This document shows, piece after piece, positions 13,536 through 24,568 of a stretch of 64,000 nt of DNA (positions are counted from its first letter, which is position 1; the number at the start of each line of letters is the position of its first letter). The notes beneath the pieces were generated by a model. The model saw only the letters and a list, made by a program, of their open reading frames with translations. It was not told the origin of the DNA and did not search any database. This stretch comes from Deltaproteobacteria bacterium (GTDB lineage: Bacteria > Desulfobacterota > Desulfovibrionia > Desulfovibrionales > Desulfovibrionaceae). The stretch covers positions 1-64,000 of the forward strand of contig JAISBT010000016.1 of NCBI GenBank assembly GCA_031266055.1, in the 5' to 3' direction. Both the position numbers and the translations under genes were made by a program.

Positions 13536-14831
13536 ATGGCGACCGGGAAACTGCATATTCTGCTGGTGGACAACGACCTGTTCAACAGGGGCGGCATTTC
13601 GACCATTTCTTCGGCCTTGGCCAACGGCATGGCGGAACGCGGGCATCAGGTCACCCTCTACGCGACAAAAACATGGCGCCAAAAAAGTCGTTACCCCCTG
13701 AATCCGGCCGTAAATCTGCGTTTGTACCGCTTTACCGACAACAATCTGAAAGTGCAAAAACTGCGGGAGGAGTTGCGGACGCTGAATCCGGACGTGTGCT
13801 GCCCGCTGTTTCCGGACGGCCGCCATCTGGTCTGGGCGGTAACCCTGCTCGGCTCCGGCATTCCCCTGCTGTATTCCGAGCACCATTCCCCCCGGACCAT
13901 CGAACAGGAATGGTGGTCGCGCAAAGGTAGGCTGGCCGCCATGAGCGGCGCGGATCGCATCCATCTGCTGCTGCCCGCCTTTACGGAAAGTGTGCCGGAT
14001 TTTCTGCGGCCCATTGTGCAGATTATCCCCAACCCGGCACCCGCCGTGAACGGACAGGCGGACGCGGCCGGACGGGCGGACGGGCGAAAGCGGCTGCTCT
14101 GGCTGGCGCGCTTGCAGGAAGGAACCAAACAGTGCCGCCTGGCCATGGATGCCTTCGCCCTGCTGGCTGAAAAACACGCCGACTGGGACATGCAGGTGGT
14201 GGGCGACGGGCCGGATCGCAAGGTGATCCGCAGGCACGCCGTTGCATTGAACCTGGGGGATCGTCTGAAACTGCGCGGAAATACGGATGCTCCCCTAGCG
14301 CATTATCTTGAGGCGCAACTTTTCTGCATTTCCTCGCGCACCGAAGGCCTGCCCAACACTCTGCTGGAGGCGCAGGCCTGCGGCCTGCCCGCCGTTGGCT
14401 TTGCCGTCTGCGAAGGCGTATCGGATCTCATCCGGCCCGGATGGAACGGCCTCTTGGCGGAAGAAATGAACGCGGCCTGCCTGGCGCAACGCCTGGACGC
14501 GCTGATGGGCGACGCCGAAGCCCGGCGCGTCATGGGGCAAAATGCCCTGGCCGTGCGGGAAACGCACAGCCTGGAAAAGTTTCTGGACGCCTGGGAGGCT
14601 TTGTTTGCGGAAACAGCGGCCTGCAAGGGCAATACGGTCATGGACGCTTTTCGGGAAGAACCCTTCGCCTCCATGGCCCGCCTCTCCGCCGCCGCCCGGA
14701 GGGAATGGCTGTGGAGGGATTTCGGAAAACTTACGCCTCATTCGCCCGAGGCGGCGTTGTACTGGCTGTTTTGGCAGCTCCCAAGCGCTGTTCTGAAAAA
14801 CCTTGTAAACTTTTTTCCCAGGCCAGGGTGA
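13536..14831 (+). CDS. Glycosyltransferase family 4
   Basis: This is a GT-B fold glycosyltransferase of 431 residues, probably cytoplasmic and adding a sugar to a surface glycan. The N-terminal domain has LVDNDLFNRGGISTISSALANGMAERGH, split here by its GGI acceptor-site loop. The C-terminal GT4 domain has LLWLARLQEGTKQ, VVGDGPDR, and the donor-site motif SSRTEGLPNTLLEAQACGLPAVG. A ~70-residue tail (TVMDAFREEPFASMARLSAA, then REWLWRDFG) is shared with the next gene. The start is ATG 13536; no strong ribosome binding site is visible because repeat DNA precedes it. Confidence 0.9.
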   Translation: MATGKLHILLVDNDLFNRGGISTISSALANGMAERGHQVTLYATKTWRQKSRYPLNPAVNLRLYRFTDNNLKVQKLREELRTLNPDVCCPLFPDGRHLVWAVTLLGSGIPLLYSEHHSPRTIEQEWWSRKGRLAAMSGADRIHLLLPAFTESVPDFLRPIVQIIPNPAPAVNGQADAAGRADGRKRLLWLARLQEGTKQCRLAMDAFALLAEKHADWDMQVVGDGPDRKVIRRHAVALNLGDRLKLRGNTDAPLAHYLEAQLFCISSRTEGLPNTLLEAQACGLPAVGFAVCEGVSDLIRPGWNGLLAEEMNAACLAQRLDALMGDAEARRVMGQNALAVRETHSLEKFLDAWEALFAETAACKGNTVMDAFREEPFASMARLSAAARREWLWRDFGKLTPHSPEAALYWLFWQLPSAVLKNLVNFFPRPG

Positions 14832-14834
14832 CGC

Positions 14835-16163
14835 ATGCATATCGTCATTGCCTGCTCAAGCCTGTGCACAAGCCGTGGAGGTTCGGAACGTGCCGCTACC
14901 AACCTGGCCAACGCCATGACCGAACGCGGCCACCGCGTTACCTTGCTTTCGCTTTCGTCTGCCCCTGGAAACGACACGCTGCTCTATCCTCTTCACCGGC
15001 AAGTACGCCATCTGGCTTGGGATAATTCCGGACGCCACGAGCAGTTGCGCAGGTTGCGTGAAAGGCTTCAGGCCGATGGCGCGGATGTGTTTCTTTCCAT
15101 GCAGTCGAGCAGCGATCATCTGCTGTGGAGTATGGTTTGCATGGGCAGCGGCATACCTTTTATTTGTTCCGAACGATGCGATCCCGTTCGCTATACCGAA
15201 CAGCGCGTCTGGAATCGGCCCGGCCGCCTGGCCGTACTCAGCGGTGCGGATGTAATCCATGAACTTCTGCCGTCCTATGCGGAGAGCGTCCCCTCCTGTT
15301 TCAAGGATCGCGTGCGCGTTATTCCCAATGCCGCCCCCGTGGATGTAAAATTGACGCACCCGGAGGCGCGGCCACACGAGCGGCCGATTCTTCTGTTTCT
15401 TGCCCGCTTTGACGGGCAAAAACGTCCCCTCCTGCTCATTGACGCCTTCCGCATGGCTGTGGTGAACCATCCGGAATGGGAATTACACATGTGGGGACAC
15501 GGGCCGTTAGAAAAAGCCGTGCGTGCCCGTATAGCCCGATGCGGGTTGGAAGCGAAGGCGCACATGCGCGGCGAATGCAAGGACACCCCGGCTGCCTATG
15601 CTGAAGCGCAGTTATACTGTCTGCCCTCAGCGTATGAAGGTTTGCCCAATACCGCACTTGAAGCCATGAGCGCGGGCCTGCCCGTTGTGGGATTTAAGGA
15701 ATGCGCCGGAATACGGGAGGTCGTGCGCGAGGGTGAAACGGGCCTCGTTGTGGCCGAATCCACACCGGAAGCGCTGGCTCGGGCGCTTGACGCGCTTATG
15801 GGCGACGGTGATTTGCGATGGCGCATGGGTCAAACCGCCATGCAGGAAGCTCGGACGTATAACCCGGAAGCCGTCAACACACAATGGGAATCCTTATTCA
15901 TGGAACTTGCGGCAAAAAAGGGGCATACGGTTATGGACGCCTTTTTTGCGGAACCTTTCGCTTCCCGGGCGCGCCTTTCGGCCGCTGCCCGGCGTGAATG
16001 GCTGTTCCGCAATTTTGGCGAACCCATGCCCTATGGCAGCCGCTGGTTCTTACTGCATTGCGCAACGTTGTTCCGCAACGCGGCGTGCCATTTGCTCGAC
16101 AAACTAAAAACCCTGCGTGGCCCGCATCTCCCTGGAGAAATTTCGCGGGCAGGTAAAATGTGA
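14835..16163 (+). CDS. Glycosyltransferase family 4, tandem paralogue
   Basis: This 442-residue GT-B enzyme parallels the preceding one throughout: CSSLCTSRGGSERAATNLANA at the N-terminus, ILLFLARFDGQKRPLLLIDAF, MWGHGPLEK, and SAYEGLPNTALEAMSAGLPVVG at the donor site. It also shares the unusual tail TVMDAFFAEPFASRARLSAA plus REWLFRNFG. It follows its paralogue by three bases, so a tandem duplication is likely. The sugar used cannot be told from sequence. It overlaps the next gene by four bases. Confidence 0.92.
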   Translation: MHIVIACSSLCTSRGGSERAATNLANAMTERGHRVTLLSLSSAPGNDTLLYPLHRQVRHLAWDNSGRHEQLRRLRERLQADGADVFLSMQSSSDHLLWSMVCMGSGIPFICSERCDPVRYTEQRVWNRPGRLAVLSGADVIHELLPSYAESVPSCFKDRVRVIPNAAPVDVKLTHPEARPHERPILLFLARFDGQKRPLLLIDAFRMAVVNHPEWELHMWGHGPLEKAVRARIARCGLEAKAHMRGECKDTPAAYAEAQLYCLPSAYEGLPNTALEAMSAGLPVVGFKECAGIREVVREGETGLVVAESTPEALARALDALMGDGDLRWRMGQTAMQEARTYNPEAVNTQWESLFMELAAKKGHTVMDAFFAEPFASRARLSAAARREWLFRNFGEPMPYGSRWFLLHCATLFRNAACHLLDKLKTLRGPHLPGEISRAGKM

Positions 16164-17374
16164 CCATGACCGGCAGCGCACAGTATGCCTTCGGCAAAAA
16201 CTGGCAGCGGTTTTTACGTACCGCCTATTCCGCTGACGCGCAAAACTCCTCCACCATCAGTTTATGCCGTCTTCTGGGCGAAAAATCCATGACAGGGAAA
16301 ACATTTCTCGATATCGGCTGCGGCAGCGGCATCCATTCGCTTGCCGCCCTGCGCCTGGGGGCGGAACGTGTCATCAGTTTCGATTGTGATCCTGATGCCG
16401 TGGCCTGTGCCGAAATGCTACGGAACCGAGAAAACAGCAAAACTTCCGAAAGATGGCATATCATGCACGGTTCTGTTCTTGACGCTGCATTTATGAACTC
16501 TCTTCCGAAGGCAGATATTGTCTATTCATGGGGAGTATTGCACCACACAGGCAATCTGCACCAGGCTATTCGAAATGCTGCTGTACCGATTTCCGCTGAT
16601 GGCATATTTTGCATAGCCCTATACAGTCGGACGATATATGAAAATTTGCAATGCTTCGGCCACCCCGGCCCGGAGGAATGGCTTGCCGTCAAGCAACGGT
16701 ATATGAATGCAGGATCTTTGGGCAAAATTGCGATATCTCTGTGGTATATTTGGAAAATCCATGTTACGCCCAACGCAGTACGGGGTTCTTTGGCCTGCGC
16801 CCGCGAGCTGCTGCGTTTCTTGCGCATGTTCTACGATAAACGCGGCATAGATCTGATGACAAGGATGCGCGACTGGCTGGGTGGCTGGTTCATGGAATAC
16901 ATCAGGGAACATGAATGCGCGGCGCTGTGCTGCAAAGACCTGCATTTGGACTTTGTTCACATGATAACAGGAGAAGGAAACACCGAATTCATCTTTCAGA
17001 AGCCCAACGCTCGGACGCAATGGACAGCGATGCTGGAACGCCGCCAATGGGTGACGTTGCAACCTCCTTTCACGCCCAATAATTCGCCTGGAATATGGGA
17101 AGCCCCGTTGCCGCAATGGGCTGCGCTGTCGGATAGCCACGAAGCGCCGACAGGATCTCCCCTGCTGTTGTGGGAGGACGGCGTCCCTCTTTCCTGGCCG
17201 CATTGTTTCTATGAAGCCATGCGGCGTTTCGGCGCGGGCAGATACAGGCACTGGGGAAGCAGCCTCTACTTTACCTCTTCGGACGGCACCGATCCCAATG
17301 CCAACGGGCGAGTCTATACATGTTCGCTGGATATTCCGGACACGCCGCCAGGAGAGCATCCGTGTGCGGAATAA
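16160..17374 (+). CDS. Class I SAM-dependent methyltransferase with C-terminal DPNxNGR module
   Basis: The N-terminal part is a Rossmann methyltransferase: motif I FLDIGCGSGIHSLAA at residues ~49-63, acidic FDCDPDAV and post-motif SWGVLHHTGN at ~125-135. The middle (~180-330) is unassigned. Residues ~333-388 form a module, with SPLLLWEDG, GAGRYRHWGSSLYF and DGTDPNANGRVYT, that recurs at the N-terminus of the radical SAM protein two genes on. The GTG at 16160 overlaps the GT4 stop; ATG 16166 is an alternative. It overlaps asnB by 13 bases. The acceptor is unknown, probably a sugar or lipid intermediate of this cluster. Confidence 0.85.
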   Translation: MTMTGSAQYAFGKNWQRFLRTAYSADAQNSSTISLCRLLGEKSMTGKTFLDIGCGSGIHSLAALRLGAERVISFDCDPDAVACAEMLRNRENSKTSERWHIMHGSVLDAAFMNSLPKADIVYSWGVLHHTGNLHQAIRNAAVPISADGIFCIALYSRTIYENLQCFGHPGPEEWLAVKQRYMNAGSLGKIAISLWYIWKIHVTPNAVRGSLACARELLRFLRMFYDKRGIDLMTRMRDWLGGWFMEYIREHECAALCCKDLHLDFVHMITGEGNTEFIFQKPNARTQWTAMLERRQWVTLQPPFTPNNSPGIWEAPLPQWAALSDSHEAPTGSPLLLWEDGVPLSWPHCFYEAMRRFGAGRYRHWGSSLYFTSSDGTDPNANGRVYTCSLDIPDTPPGEHPCAE

Positions 17375-19395
17375 CCGGATACTGGAATTTTGCCGTTGCT
17401 GAGGGGAAGGATGATCTTGTCCGTCGCGTTGCCCTCATGACGCAAACCCTGATCCGGCGCGGTCCGGACAGCGGCGGTGTATGGGCGCAGCCGGAAGCCG
17501 GGTTTGCGCTGGGGCATCGTCGTCTCTCTATCCGGGATCTTTCGCCTCTGGGCCATCAGCCCATGATCTCTCCGGACGGACGTTTCGCGCTTTCCTATAA
17601 CGGAGAAATATACAACACTGAAGAAATCGCGGCAAAACTTGCGGCGCGCGGCGTACGGCCCAGGGGAACGTCAGACTCGGAAATTCTGCTGCTGGCCTGC
17701 GCGGAATTGGGTGTGGACGAAACTTTGCCCTTGCTGCTTGGCATGTTCGCCTTTGCGCTCTGGGATGCCGAAGAACGCCGCCTGACCCTCGCGCGTGACC
17801 GCTTCGGCGTCAAACCGCTCTACTGGCTGCATGAAGGCGGCAGATTCTGCTTCGCTTCCGAACTCAAGGCCTTGCGCACCCTGGAAGACTGGCATCCAGA
17901 CATTGATCGCGATGCTCTGGCCTTGTTGCTGCGCTATGGCTACATCCCCGCGCCGCACGCCATCTGGCGCGGCACCCGCAAGCTGCCCGCCGCATGCAGA
18001 CTTGATGTTTCCGCAGGCGGTACAGTGCAGACCCGACCTTATTGGAGCGCCCTTGACGCAGCCTGTGCGGGCCTGGACAATCCTTTTTCATCCACCGAGG
18101 CGGACGAGAGCGAGATTGTCACGGGACTGGATGCTTTGCTGACGGACGCCGTCAAGCGCCGCATGGTCGCCGACGTGCCCTTGGGAGTTTTTCTTTCCGG
18201 CGGCATAGATTCCTCCGTGGTCACGGCGTTGATGCAGAAATGCAGTGACAAACCGGTGCGTACGTTCAGTATCGGCTTTGAGGAAGAAGCTTACAACGAA
18301 GCTCACTTTGCCGCCGCTGTGGCCGCATATCTCGGCACGCAACATACCGAAGTGTATTTGCGCCCGCAGGATGCCCAGGAGCTGATTCCGCAGCTTCCGA
18401 CAATTTATGACGAGCCATTCGCCGATGCTTCCCAAATTCCCACAAGCCTGCTTTCGCGCATCACTCGCCGGCATGTGACCACGGTTCTTTCCGGCGATGG
18501 CGGAGATGAGCTTTTTGCCGGGTATGGACGCTACGCCGCCTGCCTGGCCAATATGCCCGACTTTCCGCCGAAAACGCTTGGAAAGGCCGCCCTGGCTTCG
18601 TTTATCCGCGCTCTTTCTCCTTCCGGGTGGGACAGGCTGGCCGCGTTGCTGCCCAAATCCGCAAGGCCCCGTAATGCGGGCGCGCGCCTGCGCAACTATG
18701 CCGACCTGTTTCTTCATGGCGACCCGCAGACCTATTATCACCGCTATTACATGATGTATTGGTGGCATCCGGACACGGTGCTGCTTTCAGGCGACGCCCC
18801 CGCCACGGAAGCCGATGACAAAAGCCTTCCCCTCAGGCTTCGCGAGCCGCTTTCAATTATGCAGTATTTGGATACGCGCCTCTATCTTGCGGAAGACATT
18901 TTGACCAAGGTGGATCGGGCCGGCATGCACCATTCGCTTGAGACGCGCGTTCCGCTGCTTGACGCGCGGGTATTTTCCTATGCCTGGCGCATTCCTCTCC
19001 ACATGCGCATACGGGATGGCACGGGCAAAACCATGCTGCGCCGCGTGCTGCACAGGTATGTGCCGCAAAGCCTGGTGGAGCGGCCCAAGATGGGCTTCGG
19101 CATACCGATAGGCAGGTGGCTGACCACCTCGTTGCGCGCTTGGGCCGAAGACCTGCTTTCGCCGGACGTACTGCGCAATCAAGGATTTTTTCGCCCGGAA
19201 CCCGTGCGTTACGCGTGGCTGCGCCACACGAGCGGCGCCGGCAACTGGGAATACCTGCTTTGGATAGTGCTTATGTTTCAGGCCTGGCTCGCGGCTCCCC
19301 AACGTGAACGCTCCAATGACGACGGATTGCCGCGTGTTGACGTGCGTGATGAGCGCAATCCGGATCCGTCGGAATACATGGAATTGTGGAGGTAG
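17362..19395 (+). CDS. Asparagine synthase (glutamine-hydrolysing)-type amidotransferase
   Basis: The enzyme releases ammonia from glutamine in its N-terminal domain and amidates a carboxylate activated by ATP in its C-terminal domain. The GTG at 17362 is chosen because it puts the nucleophile cysteine at position 2 (VCGITGYW) after AGGAGAG. GATase II features RRGPDSGGVW, HRRLSIRDLSPLGHQPM and SYNGEIYN follow. The PP-loop motif is LSGGIDSSVV at ~residues 278-287. The 677-residue length fits long AsnB-like proteins found in surface polysaccharide loci, where the substrate can be a uronic acid rather than aspartate. Which it is here is not decidable from sequence. Confidence 0.92.
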   Translation: MCGITGYWNFAVAEGKDDLVRRVALMTQTLIRRGPDSGGVWAQPEAGFALGHRRLSIRDLSPLGHQPMISPDGRFALSYNGEIYNTEEIAAKLAARGVRPRGTSDSEILLLACAELGVDETLPLLLGMFAFALWDAEERRLTLARDRFGVKPLYWLHEGGRFCFASELKALRTLEDWHPDIDRDALALLLRYGYIPAPHAIWRGTRKLPAACRLDVSAGGTVQTRPYWSALDAACAGLDNPFSSTEADESEIVTGLDALLTDAVKRRMVADVPLGVFLSGGIDSSVVTALMQKCSDKPVRTFSIGFEEEAYNEAHFAAAVAAYLGTQHTEVYLRPQDAQELIPQLPTIYDEPFADASQIPTSLLSRITRRHVTTVLSGDGGDELFAGYGRYAACLANMPDFPPKTLGKAALASFIRALSPSGWDRLAALLPKSARPRNAGARLRNYADLFLHGDPQTYYHRYYMMYWWHPDTVLLSGDAPATEADDKSLPLRLREPLSIMQYLDTRLYLAEDILTKVDRAGMHHSLETRVPLLDARVFSYAWRIPLHMRIRDGTGKTMLRRVLHRYVPQSLVERPKMGFGIPIGRWLTTSLRAWAEDLLSPDVLRNQGFFRPEPVRYAWLRHTSGAGNWEYLLWIVLMFQAWLAAPQRERSNDDGLPRVDVRDERNPDPSEYMELWR

Positions 19396-19396
19396 T

Positions 19397-20755
19397 ATGT
19401 CTGTTTTCGTCCCACCGGACACCCTTTTGCCGCTTGAGGTGAAACCGCCGTTTCGCCACGTCCGGGGATACGGTTATGAAGCCCTTCTGCCGGAAAAGTT
19501 TGAAGCCATGGGCAACATCGTTGGGCAGAGTATGCGCTCTCCCCTTGAATTCTGTGAAAACGGCAAGGCTCTGCCCGTGCGCCACGCGCAGAATATCGGC
19601 ATCTGGTACGCGGGCGGCGGCCACTACAACCATGTGGGGCGGTGCATCTACTTTTCGTTGCCCGACAACAGCGATCCCAACACCAACGGCCGCCGCTACA
19701 CCGTGCGCGCGCCCAAGGCGCTGAGTCCCCAAGGTGGCCGCCCCTTCCCCAAACGCGTGCATGTGGTGCTTTCGCATACCTGCAATCTGTGGTGCCGCAT
19801 CTGCCGCGAAGCGCCCTTTTCCGGGCCGGTTATGGAAATGGCGCTTTTCGACAAGATCGCCGGGGAGTGCTTTGCCTTCGCCACGGAGCTTCGCCTGGAC
19901 AGCGGCGGCGAGATTCTGCTGAACAACCGTCTGCCGTCGATACTGCGGCGCGCAGCCGAATACGGCCTGCCCATTTTCGCCTCCAGCAACGGCATGTTGC
20001 TTACGCCGAAAAAGGCGCGCCTCATCGCCGAATCCACGGTACACCACATACAGATTTCAGTGGACAGCCCCGTGAAGGAAACGCTGGAATGGATCCGGCG
20101 CGGCGCAAACTTTGAACGCATCAAGCGGGGCTTGCGCAACCTTGTACGGGCGCGCAAGGATGTGGGCAGACCGTTTCTCATCTCCATCCATGCGGCCGTC
20201 ATGCGCGAAAACGTGCGCCAGTTGCCGGATCTCGTCCGCTTCGCCTCGGAACTGGGTATTGAAGGGGTGACGGCTTGCCATCTGTTTGCGCATGACTGCA
20301 TGGGCATAGACTCTTCCTGCTTCTGGAGTCAGGCCGAGTATGATGACATGCGAGCACGCGCCATTGAGCTGGCCCGCAGCCTGGACAGTTTTTTTTACGG
20401 CCCGCAACCCTTTGCTGAAGCCGCTGAAAATAACTGCATCGCGGGCTGGTGCGATTACCCCGAATACGGCACCTACATAAACCCCGACGGCACGGTCATG
20501 CCCTGCTGCATCGCCCCTAATTTCCCTCTGGGCGTCATGAATACACAATCATTCACGGAAATATGGAATGGCGAGCGGTATGAAATGCTGCGGCGTACAT
20601 ACAGAACCGATGCGCCAAGTCTTGCCCGCTGCAAAGCCTGTCTTGTGCAGGAACATTTGCAAGACTACATGGCTTTTTTTTCTCCGGCGCATTGGGAAAA
20701 GGTACGCCGAAAAATGGAAGCGTCCAGCCACCGTGCCCAGAATTTCGCCAAATGA
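19397..20755 (+). CDS. Radical SAM/SPASM-like protein with N-terminal DPNxNGR module
   Basis: The radical SAM core starts at ~residue 118; its cluster ligands C129, C133 and C136 lie in SHTCNLWCRICREAP. A strand motif LDSGGEILLNN follows, matching the family GGEP region. A C-terminal SPASM-like part has GWCDYPEYGTYINPDGTVMP followed by CC, plus CKACLVQEH, giving further cysteines for auxiliary clusters. Residues ~48-103 (SPLEFCENGK to NTNGRRYTV) repeat the module at the end of the upstream methyltransferase. The ATG at 19397 follows GGAGGTAGT. The substrate is unknown; modification of a cluster-specific sugar or peptide is inferred. Confidence 0.85.
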   Translation: MSVFVPPDTLLPLEVKPPFRHVRGYGYEALLPEKFEAMGNIVGQSMRSPLEFCENGKALPVRHAQNIGIWYAGGGHYNHVGRCIYFSLPDNSDPNTNGRRYTVRAPKALSPQGGRPFPKRVHVVLSHTCNLWCRICREAPFSGPVMEMALFDKIAGECFAFATELRLDSGGEILLNNRLPSILRRAAEYGLPIFASSNGMLLTPKKARLIAESTVHHIQISVDSPVKETLEWIRRGANFERIKRGLRNLVRARKDVGRPFLISIHAAVMRENVRQLPDLVRFASELGIEGVTACHLFAHDCMGIDSSCFWSQAEYDDMRARAIELARSLDSFFYGPQPFAEAAENNCIAGWCDYPEYGTYINPDGTVMPCCIAPNFPLGVMNTQSFTEIWNGERYEMLRRTYRTDAPSLARCKACLVQEHLQDYMAFFSPAHWEKVRRKMEASSHRAQNFAK

Positions 20756-20793: not shown

Positions 20794-21681
20794 ATGCAAA
20801 ATCTCTCCGATCAGATACGGCAGGACGTTGAATATGCCTTTTCATGCATTGCCAAATACATGGAATACTTTCCGCGCGAGAACATTCACGGCTCTTCGGT
20901 ATGCGAAATCGGCCCCGGCAAAAACATGGCCGTCTGCCTGACCTTCAAAAGTCTCGGTGCGGCCGGATCATACGCTGTGGACAAATATCTCAAGCCCTGG
21001 AACGAAGAATATCACCCCGAATTTTACAAGGCCATGGCCTATGCCGTGCGTTCCCGCTGGCCGGACGCCGACATGAATCCCTTTATCCAGTGCATTGAGC
21101 GCAACGGACATGCCGCTGAAAATGTCTCTATTCTGGCGGAAGATGCCGAAATTCTGGCCGGTATACCGGATGCTTCCCTTGACTTTCTGTATTCGTGGGC
21201 CGCGCTGGAACACCTGTATGCACCACCGCGGGCTTTTGCGCGTTTTGCCGCCCTGACCAAACCGGGAGGTCTGGGCATGCACCAGGTGGATTTTCGTGAT
21301 CATCACGATTTTTCACGTCCGCTGGAATTTTTGCTGCATCTGTACCGTTGGAACCAGGAACCGGATGAAGCTGCGTATGCATGGCTGGCGGGCCGCCTGG
21401 GCCGGAGCGCGAATCAGGCCCGCCTTGAGGGATTCGACGCCAATGGCCTGATCCGGCGGATTTGCGGCTACCACGGCAACAGTTACCGGCATGTCGATTA
21501 TGATGCCCTGTGGGCAGGCAACGGCTTTTCCGTCGAGGGGTTTGAAAAAAACATGAGCGCCGGGGAAACCTATCTGGGCGATTTTTTGCCACGCCTCGCA
21601 CATGCCGATGTGCCGTGCCGCAGACTTTCAAAAAACAATCTTGATGTCGTCAGCGGCCTTTATAAACTGCGCAAGGTGTAA
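20794..21681 (+). CDS. SAM-dependent methyltransferase, class I
   Basis: The product has a Rossmann-type methyltransferase core: SSVCEIGPGKNMAVCLTF as motif I (VCEIGPG), DKYLKPW as the acidic strand 2, and DFLYSWAALEHLYAP followed by LTKPGGLG as the motif around strands 4-5. The ATG at 20794 has AGGA seven bases upstream and gives 295 residues. An in-frame ATG at 20752 overlaps the radical SAM stop (ATGA), adding 14 residues, and is also possible. A family B hairpin starts at its stop codon and probably ends transcription or caps the mRNA. Confidence 0.85.
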   Translation: MQNLSDQIRQDVEYAFSCIAKYMEYFPRENIHGSSVCEIGPGKNMAVCLTFKSLGAAGSYAVDKYLKPWNEEYHPEFYKAMAYAVRSRWPDADMNPFIQCIERNGHAAENVSILAEDAEILAGIPDASLDFLYSWAALEHLYAPPRAFARFAALTKPGGLGMHQVDFRDHHDFSRPLEFLLHLYRWNQEPDEAAYAWLAGRLGRSANQARLEGFDANGLIRRICGYHGNSYRHVDYDALWAGNGFSVEGFEKNMSAGETYLGDFLPRLAHADVPCRRLSKNNLDVVSGLYKLRKV

Positions 21682-21826
21682 TTCCGTTTCTCAATCAAAC
21701 ATGCTTTTATGTTTGCTTGAGAAACGGAATCCGCGACAGGACGTCGCGGCGAAATGCAAAGCATTTCGGAGGCAAGGCGGAACCCAAGCTTCCGCCGCAG
21801 CCGATACATCAAAACTGCATGGATCG
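21681..21826. repeat. Family B dispersed repeat copy with long terminal hairpin
   Basis: The first 50 bases form a near-perfect hairpin (arm ATTCCGTTTCTCAATCAAAC and mirror ending GAGAAACGGAAT, loop near ATGCTTTTAT). There follow CGCGACAGGACGTCGCGGCG, AAGCATTTCGGAGGCAAGG, CTTCCGCCGCAGCCGATA and CATCAAAACTGCATGG. The copy at 58373-58590 has the same order with an additional ~75-base middle. It lies inside the glycan cluster and directly abuts the start of the GT2 gene. Confidence 0.8.
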
Positions 21827-21836
21827 GGAAACGATT

Positions 21837-23894
21837 ATGACCCAAAAACTGCACATTCTTGCCTCGTTCTGGGACGCCGCATACTGGACGACAGTTTCAA
21901 TTCTGCAAAAAAAGCGGAGCGCTCTGAACCGCGCAGGCTTTCTTTACAACCCGCAATGTTCGCTGCATTGGCAAGCGTGGAGCCATGAGCCTCTCTGCTC
22001 GCAGTTCAAGGCATATCTTTTTGGAAAAAAGACCCACGCGGAACCCGCCTATCTTGCCGCTGTCGACAAATTTATCATGTCCGCCATGCAAAGTCTTGAG
22101 GATGATGCCGGTTCCGGAAAGGACGTGCTGTGCTTTCTTGGGGGCATTCATCCGGACGCCGTTCCTTTCCTTATTGAATACATTAACAAGTTCAAAAAGA
22201 TGAAAGGTCTTCAGCCCACGTTTACCGCCATTCTGGGCCGACAGGACGACGAGCTGCGCTGCCAGTTCTTGCGGCAATATAAACAAGCCGATGCGCAGAC
22301 CATCGCCTCCATCCAGATCGAGCAGGACTGCCGCCACCGTGGCGACGAGCTGTACAGCAACTTTGCGCAATGGTGCGGCCAGGAAAACTGCCACCTCATT
22401 ACGCACAATTCGGCGGATCCTCAAATTGCCGAAGCTGGCGCCATGAGTGAACTGACGTCCCTGTTCGGGCTGCGCTATGAGGAAGAAGAGTCCCCGCCCG
22501 TCTGCTTTCCCCGGACATGCCCCGGCATTGATCTGGCCTGCGCGCTCAAGGCCTTTTCCTTTTCCGCGCCCACCAGCAAAGATCAAAACGGCTTTTATGC
22601 GCGTCTGCGCAAGGTGGAACGCGATGAGGGATATGAAGAAGCCCTGTTCATGCCCAAGAAGGAGGCCGCCTGTCTGCTTGAACGGTGCCGCGAAGGCAAC
22701 GACAGACTGTCCCGGCTGCTGGGCAGGCCGGGCCTGTTTCCAAGCCCGCATCCTCTGGACGCCCTTGCCGATGCTCCCGAGAATCCGCCCGATATGACGG
22801 AGCAACAGTGCGCAACATTTTGCAAGGCGCTTGACCCGGATATGAAGGATTTTTTTCTGCGCCGCCTGCGTGACCTGGATCGCAAGCTCACTCCAAAAGA
22901 GTGGCGGATTGGACGCTGTCTGGAAAGGGATCGCCTGGCCCGCAAGACGCCATCCGTCTTCGCGTGGCCTCGCCGGACACCTGTGGTTACCGTGCTGACG
23001 CTCTGCTACAACCACGAAAAGTATATTCTGGACTGCATGCGTGGCGTTACCGGGCAACAAGCCGACTTTCCCGTGGAACACGTCATCGTTGACGACTGCT
23101 CTTCGGACAACAGTGCCGCCATCATTGACGGCTACGCTTCAAGCCATCCGCATGTGCGTCCGGTCTTCAGACCCTTCCGCGCGCCGCACGGCGAAAACAT
23201 CCGGGATCTGTTCGGCTTGGCCCGCTCGGAATATGTGGCCCTGTGCGATGGCGACGATTATTTCACCGACCCCGCCAAACTGCAAATTCAGGCGGATTAC
23301 CTGGACGAACACCAGGACTGCGCCTTGTGCTTCCACCCGGTACGCATAGTTTATGAAGGAGAGCCTGACAAAGAGCGCGTCTACCCGCCCGCGGATGAAC
23401 TGCCGCGCGGCGTGCGCCCGTATTACCATATCAGCGACCTCGTGAAGGCGAATTTCATCCAGACCAATTCCGTCATGTACCGCTGGCGCTTTCAAGGCGG
23501 ACTGCCGGACTGGTTCCACCCGGAGCTTGTGCAGGGTGACTGGTACTGGCATATGCTCCATGCCGAAAAAGGAAACATCGGCTTCATCAATGCGGTTATG
23601 TCCGCCTACAGGCGGCATGACGGGGCGCTCTGGCGCCTTTCTGAAATAGATCGCCGGAAGCACCGCTACAAAGTCGGCCTGGACGAACTGCACTGCTATC
23701 ACACCATGAACGAGCATGGTAACGGGAAATACCGCGAACATTTCCTGCGCCTGGGCGACGGCGTAATAGCCGATATCCTGTCCCAGGCCAGAATAGCCGG
23801 AAACAGCGGCATCATTGACGAAATCAACGAAAAATATCCGCAATTCGCCCAGCACTTCATGGAGACATTGGCGGCAATGAAAAGGAGCGGCTGA
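21837..23894 (+). CDS. Two-domain protein: unknown N-terminal domain plus GT2 glycosyltransferase
   Basis: Residues ~380-600 are a GT-A family 2 glycosyltransferase: TPVVTVLTLCYNHEKYIL, VIVDDCSSDNS, and the metal-binding DGDD at ~471-474 in YVALCDGDDYF, followed by QGDWYWHML in the acceptor half. The first ~370 residues (KLHILASFWDAAYWTTVSI onward) are not recognised. Their layout, with a ...RSALNRAGFLYNP segment after a short strand, recalls sulfotransferase-like modules, but no phosphate-binding loop is visible. ATG 21837 has GGGA seven bases upstream; ATG 21819 is possible but comes straight out of repeat DNA. Length 685 residues. It overlaps the next gene by one base. Confidence 0.8.
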   Translation: MTQKLHILASFWDAAYWTTVSILQKKRSALNRAGFLYNPQCSLHWQAWSHEPLCSQFKAYLFGKKTHAEPAYLAAVDKFIMSAMQSLEDDAGSGKDVLCFLGGIHPDAVPFLIEYINKFKKMKGLQPTFTAILGRQDDELRCQFLRQYKQADAQTIASIQIEQDCRHRGDELYSNFAQWCGQENCHLITHNSADPQIAEAGAMSELTSLFGLRYEEEESPPVCFPRTCPGIDLACALKAFSFSAPTSKDQNGFYARLRKVERDEGYEEALFMPKKEAACLLERCREGNDRLSRLLGRPGLFPSPHPLDALADAPENPPDMTEQQCATFCKALDPDMKDFFLRRLRDLDRKLTPKEWRIGRCLERDRLARKTPSVFAWPRRTPVVTVLTLCYNHEKYILDCMRGVTGQQADFPVEHVIVDDCSSDNSAAIIDGYASSHPHVRPVFRPFRAPHGENIRDLFGLARSEYVALCDGDDYFTDPAKLQIQADYLDEHQDCALCFHPVRIVYEGEPDKERVYPPADELPRGVRPYYHISDLVKANFIQTNSVMYRWRFQGGLPDWFHPELVQGDWYWHMLHAEKGNIGFINAVMSAYRRHDGALWRLSEIDRRKHRYKVGLDELHCYHTMNEHGNGKYREHFLRLGDGVIADILSQARIAGNSGIIDEINEKYPQFAQHFMETLAAMKRSG

Positions 23895-24568
23895 TGCAAA
23901 CCCTCGTCATCATCGGCAATTCCCACGCCGGCCGGGAATGCTACTACCTCTTCAAGGACATGTTGGAGCACGATGCGGCCCTGCGCACGACCATGCGCTT
24001 CAAGGGCTTTCTCAGCCACGAAGGGTATGCGGGAAATTTGGGCGAACTTTCGCCGCTGCTTCTGGGTGACGATACGGACTATATGCCGGAAAGCGAAGAT
24101 CGCTTTGCCATCGGCATTGCCGATACCGGACTGCGCCGCGCCGTGTACGAGAATTTTCAGAACAGGGGAAGCGCGTTTTTTACCCTGCTCAGTCCTTTTG
24201 CCCAGATCTCCAGAGACATCCGCTGGGGCGACGCCAACATCATCGGGCATGGCTGCGCCTTTTCCTGCGGCATCACGGTCGGCAACGCCAACTACTTCAA
24301 CAGCGCGGTCATCCTGGGACACGACGCGCGCATCGGGAACTGCAATTTTTTCGGCCCCAGAAGCAGCGTCCTCGGATCAGCGCGGATAGGCGACGGGAAC
24401 CGCGCGGGCGCGCACAGCCTGGTGCTGGAAAGAGCGCGCATCGGCCACGGCAACAGCATTGCGCCTGGCGCCGTGGTCTACAAAGGGTGCGGAAACGGGC
24501 GTTTCATGATCGGGAACCCGGCTCTGCCGGATGATGAAGCCGGCAGCCTTGCGGCTGATGGGATGTAG
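23894..24568 (+). CDS. NeuD/PglD-type hexapeptide acyltransferase
   Basis: This 224-residue protein begins with a Rossmann-like LVIIGNSHAGRE segment, as NeuD and PglD sugar O- or N-acyltransferases do. From ~residue 105 it has left-handed beta-helix hexapeptide repeats (IIGHGCAFSCGITVGNANYF, ILGHDARIGNCNFFG, VLGSARIGDGN, ARIGHGNSIAPGAVV). The active-site histidine is probably in VILGHDARIG. It likely acetylates a sugar of the local glycan. It starts one base into the GT2 stop (TGATG) and ends the cluster; the next gene is convergent 28 bases away. Confidence 0.85.
   Translation: MQTLVIIGNSHAGRECYYLFKDMLEHDAALRTTMRFKGFLSHEGYAGNLGELSPLLLGDDTDYMPESEDRFAIGIADTGLRRAVYENFQNRGSAFFTLLSPFAQISRDIRWGDANIIGHGCAFSCGITVGNANYFNSAVILGHDARIGNCNFFGPRSSVLGSARIGDGNRAGAHSLVLERARIGHGNSIAPGAVVYKGCGNGRFMIGNPALPDDEAGSLAADGM

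Follow-up and report, generated by a model that had tools for sequence, protein, structure and literature searches.

Why should a methyltransferase and a radical SAM enzyme, encoded on either side of an AsnB-type glutamine amidotransferase gene, carry the same stretch of protein sequence? The question is raised by a contig of a deltaproteobacterium of the family Desulfovibrionaceae (JAISBT010000016.1), whose first 64,000 nucleotides are here called the window. A sequence-only reading of it had proposed that the two enzymes, otherwise unrelated, share a module of about 56 residues that is not a known domain. The features concerned are collected in Table 1.

Table 1. Module copies, their host genes and neighbouring genes in the window.
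Feature	Position	Strand	Basis
Module copy 1, methyltransferase C-terminal domain (residues ~295-392)	17042..17335	+	Iterated profile, 80.7 bits; alignment; element order as in copy 2
Module copy 2, radical SAM N-terminal domain (residues ~12-105)	19430..19711	+	Iterated profile, 74.2 bits; AlphaFold2 mean pLDDT 89.4, pTM 0.82
Class I SAM-dependent methyltransferase with copy 1, GTG start, 404 aa	16160..17374	+	Pfam Methyltransf_11/12/25 etc., residues ~38-159
AsnB-type glutamine amidotransferase without module, GTG start, 677 aa	17362..19395	+	Asn_synthase E 3.9e-109; GATase_7 E 3.5e-41
Radical SAM/SPASM protein with copy 2, 452 aa	19397..20755	+	Radical_SAM E 2.5e-15; SPASM E 8.4e-15
Two GT4-type glycosyltransferase genes directly upstream, without module	13536-14831, 14835-16163	+	Glycos_transf_1 E 1.3e-27, 2.8e-35
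Second methyltransferase, without module	20794..21681	+	Methyltransf_23 E 5.3e-9
GT2-domain protein of the glycan cluster	21717-23894	+	Glycos_transf_2 E 2e-19
NeuD/PglB-like hexapeptide acetyltransferase	23894-24568	+	TIGR03570 E 6.2e-32, below the curated cut-off

The two segments are homologous. Methyltransferase residues 333-388 (17156-17323) and radical SAM residues 48-103 (19538-19705) align without a gap at the positions first given, and BLASTP of the full-length proteins gives E = 2e-11 with 33% identity over 105 aa. The local alignment of the two host proteins has a raw score of 123 (maximum in 300 shuffles, 51), and 23 of the 60 core positions are identical in the two copies. Shared homology thus stood, whereas the proposed length did not. 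An alignment of 141 copies shows conservation beginning about 40 residues upstream of the proposed core, with '(G)PF...G.aW.A.lP.l..AD'; the domain is about 95 residues long, and the segments noticed at first are its C-terminal part. The whole pattern reads (G)PF...G.aW.A.lP.l..AD....RS.L.LyEdG.pLGPaHs.H.dIr..G.GRYSHW...LyFStSDNSDPNTNGR.Y, and conservation across phyla reaches 85% or more at thirteen positions, against a mean identity of about 35%. Both window copies keep the conserved positions of the family signature, E...L...G.G...F[ST]..D..DP..NGR.Y, and belong to the newly defined family by profile score and predicted elements as well. No further copy was found in this genome, and the two lie about 2.4 kb apart.

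The fold that AlphaFold2 confidently predicts for the radical SAM copy together with 104 other copies starts at about residue 13 (scores in Table 1). When the full methyltransferase was predicted separately, from 35 sequences that included the radical SAM copy, its elements came in the same order: at an alignment offset of 285, H66-72, E76-80 and E83-86 of the radical SAM protein match H351-357, E361-365 and E368-371 of the methyltransferase. Foldseek retrieved the same five giant-virus proteins from both predicted models, in line with a common fold. Against the PDB its best E was 0.32, with a query TM of 0.45 or less among the 50 matches listed; the predicted fold has no relative among solved structures, and the statement is limited to these.

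Searches of domain libraries bear out the claim that the module is not a known domain, since nothing in Pfam, NCBIfam or the PDB covers it. The best Pfam match to ten module copies had E 0.14, NCBIfam gave no match to 105 copies at E <= 0.01, and profile searches of PDB sequences returned chance matches only (E >= 0.16). In PHROGs, ten copies brought up three unnamed families, each matching a single copy (best E 0.0032). Searching the literature by motif strings and by topic yielded no paper on the module. The module is almost certainly an undescribed domain, absent from the libraries searched. Shared recognition domains of pathway enzymes are already known; this family and its predicted fold are undescribed in anything searched.

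A scan of genome contigs with a single degenerate pattern, limited to its 80 best places, found at least 77 loci, at least 75 of them left after overlap removal, in which a profile recognised at least 130 module copies in 115 ORFs; because of the way the scan was made, these counts are lower bounds. Carriers include Alphaproteobacteria (Bradyrhizobium, Azospirillum, Reyranella, Magnetospirillum, Elioraea), Gammaproteobacteria, Planctomycetota, Gemmatimonadetes, Nitrospirae, Victivallales, Fimbriimonadaceae, Thermoleophilia, Acidobacteriota-type MAGs (Vicinamibacterales, Thermoanaerobaculia) and others. The module is rare in even samples, occurring in 6 of the 199 genomes sampled from the window's order and in 3/297, 4/289 and 12/294 genomes of other groups, each count including the genome on which the sample was centred. 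Many carrier genomes have a single copy. The plasmid records searched contained one module-bearing protein, the SGNH/GDSL hydrolase WP_129356049.1 on plasmid pDCAR1 of Solidesulfovibrio carbinolicus, which belongs to the same order as the window's group. Its module is 38% identical to the methyltransferase copy and, unlike those of the window hosts, lies between two TM-like segments ahead of the GDSL-type hydrolase part.

Pfam scans of 50 host proteins place the module on many other glycan and radical SAM enzymes, so that it passes one of the checks suggested with the sequence-only reading. Methyltransferase and glycosyltransferase hosts cover several SAM methyltransferase families, including FkbM, as well as GT4, GT61 and PMT_2. 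Among radical SAM hosts, the one of L034 has SPASM, and those of L019 and L024, which are homologous, have three modules each; three-module proteins are also found in L035, L075 and L080. Other hosts are sulfatases, PhyH, MptE-like and Gfo/Idh/MocA proteins, a transglutaminase-like protein, a GDSL-type hydrolase, a PcRGLX-like lyase, oxidoreductases and small membrane proteins; about 15 of the 50 match no Pfam family at E <= 1e-5. In Planctomycetota, AsnB, two modules and GT4 follow each other in one 1448-aa reading frame (L047:3406-7749), and AsnB and two modules share one frame in L062 and L068. The common theme of hosts and neighbours is the assembly, modification and export of surface glycans, with glycan genes adjoining the module in L061, L022 and the window. 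For the radical SAM part of the window protein, the closest solved relative by sequence is a sugar enzyme, cytosylglucuronate decarboxylase, although the match is weak (E 1.3e-6). In the window's GT2-domain protein, some 400 residues ahead of GT2 match no Pfam family, and no homologue of this protein was found in the module loci.

Some module copies sit on enzymes predicted to be cytosolic, others follow signal- or TM-like segments. Forty-four of 135 module ORFs are shorter than 300 aa, and many of these are Bradyrhizobium proteins with one TM-like segment ahead of the module. The sulfatases of L034 and L035, read by eye, have a signal-peptide-like hydrophobic segment just ahead of it. A charge-based count of topology came to 27 out and 14 in, with ties for all others, and is too noisy to rely on by itself. 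In L043, L048 and similar Bradyrhizobium loci, short proteins made of one TM-like segment and a module occur, some without recognisable glycan genes nearby.

Module-bearing genes tend to lie together. Two to five module-bearing ORFs are present in 18 of 38 loci outside Bradyrhizobium, compared with 4 of 37 in that genus, and L038 has five. Clustering looked strong in genomes picked mostly for several copies, but this is a biased sample, and 18/38 loci is the less biased figure; among multi-copy genomes from even sampling, G425 and G941 have clustered copies and G053 and G798 do not. Mean identity is 38.5% between copies of the same locus and 34.6% between others. Most same-locus copies are therefore not recent duplicates, and recent duplication inside the cluster was rejected as their origin. 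Cluster-specific residue positions gave a signal (mean excess 2.5%) too small to point to a binding site.

Gain and loss of the module are independent of the enzyme, as the same enzyme types exist with and without it. The window methyltransferase architecture recurs in homologues of L029, L030, L032, L051 and L069, and this methyltransferase type with its module adjoins an AsnB gene in L029, L030, L032, L042 and L051 (AsnB homologues are present in 18 module loci). Module-less members of the type occur in L025, L029 and L030. Conversely, the second methyltransferase of the window lacks the module, and BLASTP finds homologues with it in L025, L027, L028 and L039.

The module also occurs in viruses. 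None was found in the phage records searched, whereas the phage-like IMG/VR contig L116, with endolysin and DNA-ejection families, encodes a module-bearing methyltransferase (L116:5233-6138) on the strand opposite to the phage-like genes, a layout that would suit a lysogenic-conversion gene altering the host surface. L118, L119 and L120 are contigs similar to L116. Among predicted viral structures (BFVD), Foldseek placed the module in proteins of Hyperionvirus and Harvfovirus (A0A3G5AEI9, A0A3G5ADE5, A0A3G5AAL9, A0A3G5A2W3, A0A3G5A4X5) at rmsd 1.1-1.9 A, 27-33% identity and query TM 0.60-0.80. Their names (glutamine amidotransferase, galacturonosyltransferase-like, class I methyltransferase, radical SAM) give nearly the enzyme set of the window, but spread over two viruses and as predicted structures only. 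The amidotransferase, radical SAM and methyltransferase copies suggest that such an enzyme set also passed between bacteria and protist viruses.

What the module does has to be read from features established by computation, namely its homology, extent, predicted fold, host range, clustering and enzyme-independent gain or loss. Our best explanation, which we regard as an even bet, is non-catalytic glycan recognition. In this view the module is an autonomous domain, about 95 residues long, at the N- or C-terminal end of enzymes that are unrelated to each other but share a target, a single surface glycan or lipid-linked glycan precursor. By binding some feature common to that glycan, it would keep the methyltransferase, the radical SAM enzyme, the glycosyltransferases and the exporter on one and the same polymer, and, following export, the hydrolases and sulfatases too. 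For the window, the sequence-only reading had suggested that the module binds the substrate or carrier shared by the cluster's enzymes; host range, clustering and the presence of copies on either side of the membrane make this the most likely interpretation. Both the glycan nature of the ligand and a role in holding it are inferred. Further points in favour of glycan recognition are the glycan neighbours, the occurrence of the same enzyme families with and without the module, and the phage methyltransferase that carries it. Considered as well was a Ca2+ site in the DxxDPxxNGR loop, which would be unexpected for enzymes of the cytosol. Several observations count against glycan recognition: a glycan role is not obvious for the transglutaminase, PhyH and radical SAM hosts, some of the Bradyrhizobium copies have no recognisable glycan genes close by, a single copy is all that many carriers have, same-locus copies have little cluster-specific sequence in common, and the fold has no solved relative.

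Its main rival, which we consider rather unlikely, is a scaffold: through contacts among themselves or with one shared partner protein, the modules would assemble the cluster enzymes without touching the glycan. Such docking would fit the many module-bearing enzymes of a single locus and the existence of three-module proteins. However, the membrane is predicted to separate some copies from others, so that not all modules could meet in a scaffold; single-copy genomes exist, and copies from one locus resemble each other little more than copies from different loci do. The same placement means that a ligand should exist on both sides, and a lipid-linked or finished glycan present on both sides therefore explains more than a protein scaffold does. 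The very wide host range, the single copies in some genomes and the weak within-cluster signal would also be expected of a stabilising or spacing appendage with no specific ligand, spread by recombination among glycan clusters. We hold this to be improbable, since it sits poorly with the strong conservation of thirteen positions across phyla and does not explain why module genes cluster or why their hosts keep to a narrow functional theme.

It is more improbable still that the clusters modify a peptide or protein, with the module in the role that the RiPP recognition element (RRE) has in RiPP pathways. Radical SAM/SPASM, AsnB-type, methyltransferase and transglutaminase hosts do recall peptide-modifying pathways, and RRE domains, which occur discrete or fused (PMC7470986), likewise represent one recognition domain on varied enzymes of a pathway. 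The hosts of the module are mainly glycan enzymes, however: GT4, GT61, PMT_2, Wzt_C and sulfatase hosts, with their glycan neighbours, point to a polysaccharide, and the PqqD-like model PF05402 is absent from the Pfam matches of the window proteins, the two hosts included, at E <= 1. For glycan recognition, a precedent is the C-terminal domain of Wzt (Wzt_C, PF14524), which has no catalytic role, is attached to a protein of a glycan pathway and serves to recognise an O-antigen feature (PMC9445017). The module differs from it in occurring on many more enzyme types and in sequence, Wzt_C being absent from the Pfam matches of the window proteins and of ten module copies at E <= 1. One ABC ATPase (L025:3808-5775) carries both in separate stretches, the module at 406-461 and Wzt_C at 508-646.

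The module would mark many otherwise unannotated enzymes as belonging to one pathway type, and so make it possible to mine glycan clusters that are now missed. If it binds a common glycan element, this would account for the ability of unrelated tailoring enzymes to reach the same polymer on either side of the membrane, and would provide a small binding module for glycan work. A broader proposal, possible but doubtful in our judgement, is that of a cluster-wide recognition domain, with a fold unseen in solved structures, that addresses cytosolic and exported enzymes of many phyla, phages and giant viruses to one kind of glycan or carrier. Were that true, the module would represent a general, so far nameless addressing system of glycan assembly.
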